Shown here piece by piece: positions 14,204 to 32,547 of a stretch of 37,103 nt of DNA; the stretch's first letter is position 1; the number at the start of each line of letters is the position of its first letter. The notes beneath the pieces are model-generated. The model saw only the letters and a list, made by a program, of their open reading frames with translations, searched no databases and had not been told where the DNA came from. The DNA is from a virus, in the IMG/VR virus record IMGVR_UViG_3300007960_000067, positions 1 through 37,103 of that record; one strand, written 5' to 3'. A program made the translations under genes and the position numbers.

Positions 14204-14829
14204 CACACAACCTCATGACAAAACGAACACAAGCAGCGGCAGTGGTACTCCTGTTGTTGCTGATTGGTTGCCGCCAATCATTGACACCTGAACCACTACC
14301 GAAGCCCACACCGAAACGGGAGCGAAGCCCAATGGCCGAAACGCTTACACCTAACAGCGGCCCATCATACGCCAACATTGTCACTGAGGGGGATCTGCTA
14401 TGGATCGATTGGAAAGCCTCGCAGGATAATACGAACCGAACATTCGGCTGCGAAACACCGGTTAGTATCTATTCAGACATCACCTCCCTGACACTGAACT
14501 TCAAGGCGAGGATTGACACTGACCCGCTTGATGTCGACTTCAAAGTCCGGATCGATGGCGGATCATGGACATCCGTCGATACAGTCACAGTATCAGCGAC
14601 TTCATTCACCAGCTACCAAGCCAGTTGGTCTGGTTCATTCGGTGCGGCGACAAGATCGTCGCTGTTTGAATTTAATATCGCTGTTGGATCGATCAACGGG
14701 GCACAGGCTGACTTTGATATTGATTGGGTGCGACTGACAATCGACGGAACCGAAGTCATTGGCGGCGAGTTCAACCCGGCTTGGAGTTTCAACTCAAATA
14801 GAATATGGGCCCCAGGAGTGCTGCACTGA
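14200..14829 (+). CDS. Lipoprotein-like tail-region protein with nested start
   Basis: The long form (209 residues, ATG 14200 overlapping the previous stop as ATGA) opens with KR, a hydrophobic run AAAVVLLLLLIG and Cys 24: a lipoprotein signal with an LIGC-type lipobox. A Pro-rich stretch (residues 28-44) follows, resembling Rz1-type outer-membrane spanins or anchored exclusion lipoproteins. A second in-frame ATG at 14332, with GGGAG about 10 bases upstream, would give a 165-residue form without the signal, consisting of the beta-sandwich-like domain. The products could be a tail protein and a membrane-anchored version. Confidence 0.75.
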   Translation: MTHNLMTKRTQAAAVVLLLLLIGCRQSLTPEPLPKPTPKRERSPMAETLTPNSGPSYANIVTEGDLLWIDWKASQDNTNRTFGCETPVSIYSDITSLTLNFKARIDTDPLDVDFKVRIDGGSWTSVDTVTVSATSFTSYQASWSGSFGAATRSSLFEFNIAVGSINGAQADFDIDWVRLTIDGTEVIGGEFNPAWSFNSNRIWAPGVLH

Positions 14830-17540
14830 TGTTAAAGAACACCGCCAGTCAAGTTGTTGGCTTTTTCATGGTGGACTCCACCGATGGGGAGACCGGGATC
14901 ACAATCGGAACGCCCACGGTTTATATCACTAAAGATGGGGGCACCCAGGCAACTGGGGGCGGAACGTCGACTCATGAGGGGAATGGGCAATGGACCTACG
15001 CCCCGACGCAGGCAGAGACCAATGCGGACCATGTCTTCTTTACAATGAAGCTGTCGGGGGCAATCACTCAGAGCCTGAATGTTTACCCGGGAACGATTGC
15101 CAGCTTGGCTACTCAGGCTTCTGTTGACACGATAGACGGGATTGTTGATTCCATCCTTATCGATACCGCAGAAATCGGAGCAGCTGGTGCTGGACTCACT
15201 ACTCTAGCGACTCAGGCCAGTGTCGATGTCATCGATGGTAATGTTGACGCAATTCTCGTTGATACAGGTACAACAATCCCTGCTTCCCTAACGACTATTG
15301 ATAATGAAATCGCAGCCATCGATGGGATTGTCGATGCCATTCTGATTGACACTGCAGAGATTGGTGCTGCTGGTGCTGGATTAACTGCTCTCGCCACACA
15401 AGTTAGTGTCGATACAATCGATGGGATTGTAGATTCTATTCTGGTTGACACGGCAGAGATCGGCACAGCGGGAGCGGGATTAACAGCCCTGGCAACCCAG
15501 ACAAGTGTGAACACAATCGACGGCATTGTGGATGCAATCTTGGTCGACACAGGTACAACCATTCCAGCTTCTCTCACCACCATTGATGATGAGATTGCAA
15601 CGATTGATGCCAACGTAGATGCCATCCTTATTGATACGGCGGAAATCGGAGCGGCAGGTGCTGGTCTCACAGCGTTGGCAACCCAGGCCTCAGTCGATGT
15701 CATCGACACCAATGTCGATTCGATCCTGGTTGACACGGCAGAGATTGGAGCAGCAGGGGCTGGACTCACTGCCCTTGCGACACAGGCGAGCGTGGACACC
15801 ATTGATGGAATTGTAGATGACATTCTGATTGACACTGCGGAGATCGGTGCAGCAGGTGCTGGGTTAACTGCACTTGCAACGCAAGCTTCTGTAGACACCA
15901 TTGACAGCAATGTTGATGCGATTCTTGTGGACACTGCGGAGATCGGAGCGGCAGGGTCTGGGTTAACTGCACTTGCAACGCAAGCTTCTGTAGACACCAT
16001 TGACAGCAATGTTGATGCGATTCTTGTGGACACTGCGGAGATCGGAGCGGCAGGGTCTGGCCTCACTGCGTTGGCAACACAAGCTTCGGTGGATACGATT
16101 GACTCTGTTGTGGATGGCATTAAAGCTGTTACTGACAACTTGCCGAGCAGCGGCGCATTAACAAACTTGCCAGTTGACGTGGTGAAAGTGCTCGGAGGAG
16201 CGCTTGCTGAAACGACGAGCGGAAGGATTGTGGCGAACTTCAACACGTTCTTCGATAATGGCGACTCGAACAGCACTAAGACTCAAGATGACATCGGCGG
16301 CGGAACCGTCAGCGGAACCGTTGACGCCAATGTAGTGCAGATCAAGGGGTCAGGACTAACGGAAACGACAGCCGGTCGTCTGGCTGCGAACATTTCTACC
16401 GTGTTTGACAACGCAGACGCAGCGACCACGAAAACAGCTGACGATATTGGGACGGCCACAGTTAGTGGCACCGTAAACGCCAATCTTACACAGGTGCTCG
16501 GGACAGCAGTTACAGAAACGACATCAGGGCGGCTTGCTCAAAACGCTTCCGTGTTCTTTGATAACGACGACGGAGCAAGCACGAAAACTCAGGACGACAT
16601 CGGGTCAGCATTGGTGACCGGTACAGTCAATGCGAATGTAACACAGGTCAAGGGTACGGCATTAACGGAAACTTCTACCGGAAATCTGGCTGACAACATA
16701 TCGCAGTTTTACGACCTGGACACGACCACGACTAAGACGGTGGACGATGTCGATCAGGCAACTGTCACAGGCACGGTCAACGCCAACGTGACGCAGTTCC
16801 TTGGTACAACAATCGCTGAAACCACAGCAGGCCGAATCGCGGCAAACTTTGATGAATTCTTTGACAATGACGACGCGGCCAGTGCAGTCACTCTGCAAAC
16901 AATCCAGGACATTGACGACAACTTTGCGTCAGTCGCCGGGTCTGGTGCCAGGACTATCACAGTCAATGTCAAGGACACGGCAGGCACGCCAGCCAACCTT
17001 GAAAACGCACGCGTGAGACTCACGGAAGGCGTCAACACTTTCGTTGTCGATACTGATGCGAGCGGTAATGCTGTGTTTGCCCTCGATGATGCGACCTACA
17101 GCTACGCGATTTACAAGGCGGGATACACATCCGAGACCGGCACAATTGTCGTGACGGCAGATGCAACAGTGAATAAAGATATCGCACAATCAAGCATCAC
17201 CCCGAGCAGCGGCAGTGACACGTCAACGGGCGTGCTGGTCTGCTACGACGAAAACTACGCACCAGAATCGGGTGTCACATTCTCAATGCAGATGACAGCG
17301 GGGCCGGGTGTGGCCGGTGACTCACTGGATACGACAGTTAGGACCGCCACAAGTGCCGCGACAACGGGACTGGTACAATTCACAAACTTGGTTCGCGGGG
17401 CAACGTATCAACTTTGGCGTTCGACGTTTACGAGCTCTAGCGTGTTTGGTTCGATCGCAACCGCAAACGCGAAAGTCACGGTAGTTGTGCCGGATGCCGC
17501 ATCATTTAATCTACCTGAAGTTCTAGGCACTGACGCATAA
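14829..17540 (+). CDS. Long repeat-rich tail fibre protein
   Basis: A 903-residue fibre. Residues 1-90 form an N-terminal domain (TPTVYITKDGGTQATGGGTS..., QAETNADHVFFT) seen in several tail proteins. Nine LATQxSVDxID units of about 33 residues follow, two carrying an extra 29-residue insert. Five 50-51-residue units then repeat ETTxGRxxxN and DDIGxxTVSGTVNAN. A carboxypeptidase-regulatory-like beta domain (VNVKDTAGTP...) and a final beta domain complete it. The repeat part looks like a trimeric coiled-coil shaft, and the end is the likely receptor-binding tip. ATG at 14829 overlaps the previous stop. Confidence 0.88.
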   Translation: MLKNTASQVVGFFMVDSTDGETGITIGTPTVYITKDGGTQATGGGTSTHEGNGQWTYAPTQAETNADHVFFTMKLSGAITQSLNVYPGTIASLATQASVDTIDGIVDSILIDTAEIGAAGAGLTTLATQASVDVIDGNVDAILVDTGTTIPASLTTIDNEIAAIDGIVDAILIDTAEIGAAGAGLTALATQVSVDTIDGIVDSILVDTAEIGTAGAGLTALATQTSVNTIDGIVDAILVDTGTTIPASLTTIDDEIATIDANVDAILIDTAEIGAAGAGLTALATQASVDVIDTNVDSILVDTAEIGAAGAGLTALATQASVDTIDGIVDDILIDTAEIGAAGAGLTALATQASVDTIDSNVDAILVDTAEIGAAGSGLTALATQASVDTIDSNVDAILVDTAEIGAAGSGLTALATQASVDTIDSVVDGIKAVTDNLPSSGALTNLPVDVVKVLGGALAETTSGRIVANFNTFFDNGDSNSTKTQDDIGGGTVSGTVDANVVQIKGSGLTETTAGRLAANISTVFDNADAATTKTADDIGTATVSGTVNANLTQVLGTAVTETTSGRLAQNASVFFDNDDGASTKTQDDIGSALVTGTVNANVTQVKGTALTETSTGNLADNISQFYDLDTTTTKTVDDVDQATVTGTVNANVTQFLGTTIAETTAGRIAANFDEFFDNDDAASAVTLQTIQDIDDNFASVAGSGARTITVNVKDTAGTPANLENARVRLTEGVNTFVVDTDASGNAVFALDDATYSYAIYKAGYTSETGTIVVTADATVNKDIAQSSITPSSGSDTSTGVLVCYDENYAPESGVTFSMQMTAGPGVAGDSLDTTVRTATSAATTGLVQFTNLVRGATYQLWRSTFTSSSVFGSIATANAKVTVVVPDAASFNLPEVLGTDA
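15105..16133 (+). repeat. Nine-copy shaft repeat in tail fibre
   Basis: Nine units beginning LATQ encode a shaft of VDxIDxxVDxILxDTAEIG heptads. Most are 99 bases long. Units 2 and 4 carry a GTTIPASLTTID insert. The protein is nearly invariant while third codon positions differ widely, except for two adjacent identical units. Confidence 0.9.
15861..16058 (+). repeat. Perfect 99-bp tandem duplication
   Basis: Bases 15861-15959 and 15960-16058 are identical, exactly one 33-codon shaft unit. Other units differ at many synonymous sites, so this copy is recent. Confidence 0.92.
16179..16930 (+). repeat. Five-copy 51-residue repeat in tail fibre
   Basis: Units begin near 16179, 16332, 16485, 16638 and 16788. 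Each has ETTSGR, a FFDN-type turn, KTxDDI and a closing VSGTVNAN or VTGTVNAN, except that the last diverges after its FFDNDD segment. Confidence 0.85.
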
Positions 17541-23730: not shown

Positions 23731-23846
23731 CAGCAACTGGGCAGAGGTGGAACCCTAGAGGCTACGAGGCAGGACACGGCAGGAAGTCAGTAGCCGCTCA
23801 GTTGTTTCAAAGCAGCGGGCCAGATCGACGCGAGGATACAACAAAG

Positions 23847-24151
23847 ATGGCGAAAAAAAAAAGACTCGAAATCGTCGTGCCTGTGCCAATGCCAACGTGG
23901 AACAGGTTGCTGGCGATGAACAGATTCCAGCGGATGAAAGTGCGGCATTTACTTCACGCGTTCATATCACTTTCCATCACATACGGAAGAGACTGGCCGA
24001 CCCTGACGGTCTATCGGGGAAAGCAGCAATCGACGGAATTGTTGAAGCTGGAATACTTCCAGACGATTCGGCCAAGTTTGTCGAAGAGGTTCGCCATCAG
24101 CAAATTAAAGGAAGCAAGGAAGAGACGGTAATTGTGATTCAGGAAATCTAA
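23847..24151 (+). CDS. RusA-like Holliday junction resolvase spread over two frames
   Basis: Frame one, from ATG 23847 (94 residues, to 24131), begins LEIVVPVPMPTWNRLLAMN, a RusA-like N-terminus. The -1 frame, open through the whole region and ending at 24151, carries the catalytic core: RVHITFHHIRKRLADPDG, KAAIDGIVEAGILPDDS, whose acids match the RusA active site. A run of ten A bases (23853-23862) right after the start lies in both frames. Either the gene is frameshifted, uses slippage, or two proteins overlap. The resolvase would cut recombination intermediates made by the Sak4-like protein. Confidence 0.65.
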
Positions 24152-32490: not shown

Positions 32491-32547
32491 GGCCGCCCGT
32501 CTGGAGTGCTTGCCTTGCAGCAAGAACCGGGGCGGCCTTTTTTTTTT
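32491..32547 (+). terminator. Bipartite intrinsic terminator
   Basis: GGCCGCCC (32491-32498) pairs with GGGCGGCC (32530-32537), with CTTGC/GCAAG inside the loop, then ten T (32538-32547). It separates the two promoter units. Confidence 0.9.

Follow-up and report, generated by a model that had tools for sequence, protein, structure and literature searches.

A RusA-type resolvase fold that appears to be divided between two overlapping reading frames in a phage genome

The window analysed here is the whole 37,103-nucleotide stretch of an IMG/VR virus record, and the genes around the locus studied are those for a pyrophosphatase, a DNA methyltransferase, a Sak4-like annealing protein, an SSB, helicases and a primase. 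A recombination-gene neighbourhood of this kind is a common location for a resolvase. At the locus in question two open frames overlap behind a run of ten A residues (A10; Table 1). Frame 0 starts at ATG 23847 and encodes 94 residues (MAKKKRLEIVVPVPMPTWNRLLAMNRFQRMKVRHLLHAFISLSITYG...EYFQTIRPSLSK...KRR) up to the stop codon at 24129-24131. The -1 frame, which encodes RVHITFHHIRKRLADPDGLSGKAAIDGIVEAGILPDDSAKFVEEV and within which RLADPDGLSGKAAIDGIVEAGILPDDSAKFV is found, remains open from 23759 to 24151, the A10 run (exactly 23853-23862) included. The position of the run and the layout of the two frames agree with the first-pass annotation. Ahead of the catalytic core, ATG, GTG and TTG codons of the -1 frame are limited to GTG 23897, which has no Shine-Dalgarno sequence. 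ATG 23847 comes into the catalytic frame if the run gains one A or loses two. The RusA-like part of frame 0 continues beyond the run, to about 23981. The window has just one more homopolymer of this length, a T10 at 32538-32547. Elsewhere in the window, a long repetitive ORF (14805-17540) has repeats of the type IDGIVDAILIDTAEIGAAGAGLTALATQASVD, and the strand opposite to it is open for 354 codons (15212-16276).

Table 1. Features of the two-frame locus (window coordinates)
Feature	Position	Strand
Frame-0 ORF, 94 residues: putative RusA N-half (strand 1, PTWN loop, helix 1), EY..IRP motif and basic tail	23847..24131	+
Open region of the core (-1) frame, stop to stop	23759..24151	+
Conserved catalytic RusA core, equivalent to E. 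coli RusA residues 48-117; last codon is the stop 24149-24151	23939..24151	+
Catalytic motif DPDG of the -1 frame, 107 nt past the frame-0 PTWN codons	23999..24010	+
Frame-0 PTWN codons; GTG 23897 of the core frame arises from the Trp codon	23892..23903	+
Double-coded junction: helix 1 (frame 0) and entry to the first core strand (core frame)	23939..23981	+
Frame-0 motif EYFQTIRPSL within the core, conserved beyond the core's own constraint	24051..24080	+
A10, candidate slippage site leading from ATG 23847 to the core frame	23853..23862	+
GTG, the sole core-frame start codon, without Shine-Dalgarno; alternative start	23897..23899	+

The chain encoded by the conserved part of the -1 frame is the catalytic half of RusA. 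On its own it is modelled by AlphaFold2 with a pLDDT of 92.7, and RusA entries rank at the top when the model is searched with Foldseek and VIA-align. Against residues 48-117 of E. coli RusA the VIA Z score is 7.5 (67 residues, rmsd 2.3), the next unrelated entry scoring 4.1. The only part of RusA that the core chain lacks is residues 1-47. Among 51-52 aligned members D21, D23, K28, D32 and D43 (core numbering) are invariant. The family phrog_34 (RusA-like resolvase) is matched by 51 of 52 cores, and the core profile finds RusA in the PDB with an E-value of 0.0065. Pfam PF05866 is matched by 3 of 51 cores, the window's own core not being among them. Pentatricopeptide matches of the core profile were set aside as repeat matches, with no passing stretch. 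The core chains also match phrog_1532 (80 aa, function unknown) in 32 of 52 cases, and the length of that family suggests that it represents RusA cores without the N-half in annotated phages.

Relatives were collected from viral contigs in a scan that used the core as query, followed by profile scans for the core and for the N-terminus of frame 0. After removal of a false match (L055), this first lineage comprises 71 distinct loci, the window counted, and includes contigs of two bacterial MAGs. In all 71 the ORF bearing the PTWN motif occupies frame 0 and the catalytic core the -1 frame; a continuous rusA frame is found at none of them. The spacing from PTWN to the core is 107 nt in 69 loci and 110 or 113 nt in the other two. 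One member (L015) is the named methanogen virus vir555 (BK063671.1, 12539-12834), whose annotation contains the frame-0 ORF only (DBA35050.1, hypothetical), leaving the RusA core of the -1 frame unannotated. A divergent member from a whole-genome profile search led to a second lineage in 46 viral contigs. Its 45 loci (genome member included) keep the -1 relation, with exactly 110 nt between P-S/T-W-N and DEDN, and none has a continuous frame. Searches of plasmids for relatives, of GenBank phages for the second lineage, and directly with the frame-0 protein of the window gave no match. The two-frame RusA layout noted behind the A10 run by the first-pass annotation is more than chance, being present in the 71 and 45 loci, with stops in both frames well under the expected numbers. 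The split arrangement appears, from sequence comparison, to recur in dozens of distantly related phages and to have been overlooked by annotation.

A locus beyond the 71, L038, carries its core in the +1 frame, in an ORF of its own. Its ORF1 no longer overlaps the core and yet retains EYDKAIRPKAKKK at its end, whereas frame 0, if read over the core, contains a stop and gives EYSKTITTSTSKK, with RP lost. L038 can be viewed as a natural control, fitting the idea that a functional frame-0 tail was retained upon its relocation, but it is a single contig and may contain an error. A search for unsplit relatives of this locus returned L038 alone.

Selection on both frames was assessed by simulating stop codons in one frame, given the protein of the other frame and the codon usage of each locus, using 60 first-lineage representatives less than 80% identical. 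Over the core, 0 frame-0 stops are observed against about 138 expected, a number whose precision, like that of the other simulated values, is overstated by counting related loci as independent, although the effects are very large. This simulation rules out chance as the reason why frame 0 stays open there. Conversely, given the frame-0 protein, 5 core-frame stops are present between PTWN and the junction against about 49 expected. With context-specific codon usage the depletion persists, at 5 against 33 expected where the next bases would complete a stop and 116 against 177 elsewhere. The third frame, taken as a control, is not depleted (188 against 147). In the second lineage there are 0 frame-0 stops over the core (about 21 expected) and 0 core-frame stops upstream (about 23 expected), and again the third frame is not depleted (29 against 15).

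Amino acid conservation beyond that required by the other frame leads to the same picture. In the core frame it sets in abruptly, about 56-68 nt past PTWN. Over the core, frame 0 has a motif of its own, E-Y-x-x-M-I-R-P-x-x-S/K-K (EYxxMIRPxxSK), in which Y is found in 55 of 59 loci against 16 expected, R in 49 of 59 against 8, and P in 49 of 59 against 13. The second lineage has a conserved Leu..Ser..Tyr motif in frame 0 over its core. In 13 close pairs, 59 of 89 changes upstream of the core are at frame-0 third positions, and 56 of 99 inside the core are at core third positions. Since the changes in the core are mostly core-synonymous and nonsynonymous in frame 0, the C-terminal half of the frame-0 protein is weakly constrained outside its motif. 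Stop avoidance and frame-specific motifs together indicate selection on both frames, as in a true overlapping gene pair; two genuine overlapping proteins, listed as an alternative in the first-pass annotation, are now the best supported reading.

The computed results (conservation of the layout, selection on both frames, identity of the core and collinearity of both halves with RusA) favor a conserved overlapping gene pair encoding complementary halves of a RusA-type resolvase, with slippage on A10 in the window; we regard this as probable, well short of certain. The frame-0 protein would provide strand 1, the PTWN loop and helix 1, which make up the N-terminal half, and its further course over the core would bear a separate EY..IRP..K motif and a basic tail, whereas the -1-frame protein would provide the catalytic sheet with the metal-binding Asp residues. 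If both frames are translated, the products would be two separate polypeptides, most likely assembling into an active resolvase, with the presumed activity of a Holliday junction nuclease. In most relatives the core-frame protein would start upstream of frame 0, beside its start, or internally behind a Shine-Dalgarno sequence. In the window, RNA polymerase would slip on A10 after ATG 23847, so that the second protein is made from the shared start.

The routes to the core frame vary among the loci. Many have a core-frame start upstream of, or beside, the frame-0 start, and in the second lineage nearly all have upstream core-frame starts, the core frame there having N-terminal motifs such as FPNASPDLLARN or LPAHLHGQVIAQL. 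In five loci (L003, L044, L084, L110 and L115) a stop within the overlap interrupts the core frame; in each of the five this stop is followed at once by a start that has a Shine-Dalgarno sequence, compared with 8 of the 55 remaining loci with such a start in that position (Fisher p about 2e-4). The window and L031/L036 lack a start of this kind, and an A10 or A9 is found immediately past the frame-0 start. The A-run of L031 is directly flanked by a core-frame TAA. An A9 is also present in L007/L076, both of which have an upstream ATG. Altogether, 5 of 78 distinct loci have an A-run of at least nine in this segment, where about 0.26 are expected. Some core frames have further motifs before the overlap: a conserved FPNASxDxLxRN-like motif in L166, L171, L189, L190, L198 and L202, LPxxYRxQ-like motifs in L072, L100, L150 and L173, and, ahead of the core in the same frame, zinc-finger-like Cys motifs (CSLC..YCQQC, CPHC..YCDC) in L074 and L110, the latter with a stop and a new start between the Cys motif and the core.

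RNA polymerase slippage on such A-runs is an established route to a second frame, according to a review (PMC5009743). Because the window offers no usable start, its A10 adjoins the ATG and the route is an established one, slippage on A10 is most likely the means of access to the core frame in this phage. The overlapping pair could instead be expressed in the window from GTG 23897 or a non-canonical start, without slippage, which we consider unlikely, although it is the strongest of the alternatives. GTG 23897 is in frame, and an NTG is present at that position in every relative with the Trp. However, the GTG has no Shine-Dalgarno sequence, the relatives show no preference for ATG at the NTG base, and in L115 a core-frame stop lies right behind that NTG. 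The absence of ATG preference also led us to reject a general role as start codon for the NTG that the PTWN Trp codon creates. Slippage on A10, the idea put forward in the first-pass annotation, is the best available route from the start codon to the catalytic frame in this phage, but it is not general: most relatives lack a long A-run and several have core-frame stops downstream. Nor would slippage there unite the RusA N-terminus with the core, since frame 0 is RusA-like past the run, to about 23981; the second protein would lack the RusA N-half.

The model of the frame-0 protein is helical with moderate confidence (pLDDT 71.5) and gives no convincing fold match. The family has no match among PDB sequences, and in PHROGs and Pfam one stray member match each, none meaningful. 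The core chain alone might be a working minimal nuclease, with the frame-0 protein a separate overprinted regulator or DNA-binding partner. The confident model of the core by itself, the frame-0 basic tail, the frame-0 motif, for which RusA has no known counterpart, and the failure of Pfam and PHROGs to recognize frame 0 would fit such a scheme; but the part missing from the core is just RusA residues 1-47, and in both lineages the frame-0 N-half lines up collinearly with the beginning of unsplit RusA, and we therefore give this scheme a rather small chance. The collinearity comes from hhalign profile comparison with 13 unsplit RusA-like proteins, in which the two-chain reading concatenates frame 0, taken up to +90, with the core, taken from +47 onwards (both counted from PTWN). 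In the first lineage the concatenation scores 99.0, aligned over its whole length, against 93.9 +/- 1.1 when the columns of the N-part are permuted (0/300 reach 99.0), so that the gain from the N-half is modest. The second lineage shows a stronger effect, the concatenation scoring 43.1 against 26.3 +/- 1.1 with permuted columns (0/150), while fusing the frames at the junction by a -1 shift gives 31.7. These alignments support the correspondence of the frame-0 N-half to the RusA N-terminus in both lineages, and together with the identity of the core they uphold the original description of a RusA-like protein divided between frame 0 and the -1 frame.

The same comparisons bear on a programmed -1 ribosomal frameshift near 23940-23960, which would yield one RusA polypeptide and leave the frame-0 ORF as the unshifted by-product. 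Such a frameshift would suit the fixed spacing between motifs, the change of the constrained frame from frame 0 upstream to the core frame downstream, and the A-rich codons in the WERKK region of some loci. However, the fusion aligns less well with unsplit RusA than the two-chain reading does, and does not span the complete domain. Between the conserved Asn and the catalytic Asp it would have 33 residues where the unsplit L064 has 51 (counted from the sequences), making the product about 18 residues shorter than unsplit relatives in this interval. As about 45-50 nt are read by both halves of the fold, a single frameshift cannot yield both, and nowhere is the N-half in the same polypeptide as the core, the two being in different frames in all relatives. 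When 69 loci are aligned without gaps, they have no slippery heptamer in common at the frame junction, and a conserved -1 slippery site was rejected on this account. The core frame is stop-poor far upstream of any junction, has N-terminal motifs upstream in the second lineage, has starts with Shine-Dalgarno sequences after its late stops, and in L038 is the +1 frame. We consider a frameshift improbable. A frameshift lesion or a miscounted base in the assembly of an ordinary rusA, also raised in the first-pass annotation, is virtually eliminated: homopolymers are commonly error-prone, but the same split is present in more than 100 relatives with no continuous frame in any, and a miscount in A10 would not join the RusA parts, as frame 0 is still RusA-like past the run.

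The overlapping gene pair thus remains the preferred reading. A stronger formulation, to which we give about even chances, is that one small enzyme fold is stably maintained as two complementary half-proteins from overlapping frames of about 300 bases in at least two deep lineages, with the join double-coded and with varied routes of access. Overlapping phage genes are known, and a conserved enzyme fold divided between overlapping frames would, if true, be a new mode of encoding and a directly testable case of long-lasting selection on two frames. The varied start routes would provide a natural series on how a second frame is accessed. In practical terms, gene finders can overlook the catalytic half of a split RusA; in BK063671 frame 0 alone is annotated, as hypothetical, and phages of this kind therefore look from their annotation as if they had no resolvase.

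The closest known system is RusA itself (E. coli; PDB 1q8r/2h8c/2h8e; PF05866; phrog_34). The core chain corresponds to its residues 48-117 and keeps the invariant Asp/Lys pattern, the N-terminus of RusA has a collinear counterpart in the frame-0 N-half, and the neighbourhood is one of recombination genes. However, RusA is one polypeptide from one frame, whereas here the halves are in two overlapping frames with about 45-50 nt double-coded. No description of RusA with overlapping frames or split genes was found in the open-licence papers searched. The PRFect paper names RusA/RuvC among genes known to frameshift; as the work cited there concerns ruvC, we do not count this as a precedent. Genes using transcriptional slippage include Thermus dnaX, Shigella spa13 and IS elements, as described in the slippage review, whose accessible part does not mention RusA or resolvases (PMC5009743). 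They resemble the window in that a second frame would be read from one start codon. Unlike in those genes, the site here adjoins the start codon, would yield a second whole protein, and would serve a minority of relatives if at all. The G/GT tail chaperones of λ, made by a programmed -1 frameshift, similarly have the N-part in frame 0 and the C-part in the -1 frame in a conserved layout. Here, unlike in G/GT, the loci have no slippery site in common, the core frame extends open to the upstream side and has its own start in most relatives, and the fused product would miss part of the fold. The λ genes Rz and Rz1 are nested overlapping genes for the two subunits of the spanin complex, and offer a parallel for cooperating proteins from overlapping frames of one DNA. 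In the present case, unlike Rz/Rz1, the overlap covers nearly the whole length, and it is one small enzyme domain that appears to be divided.
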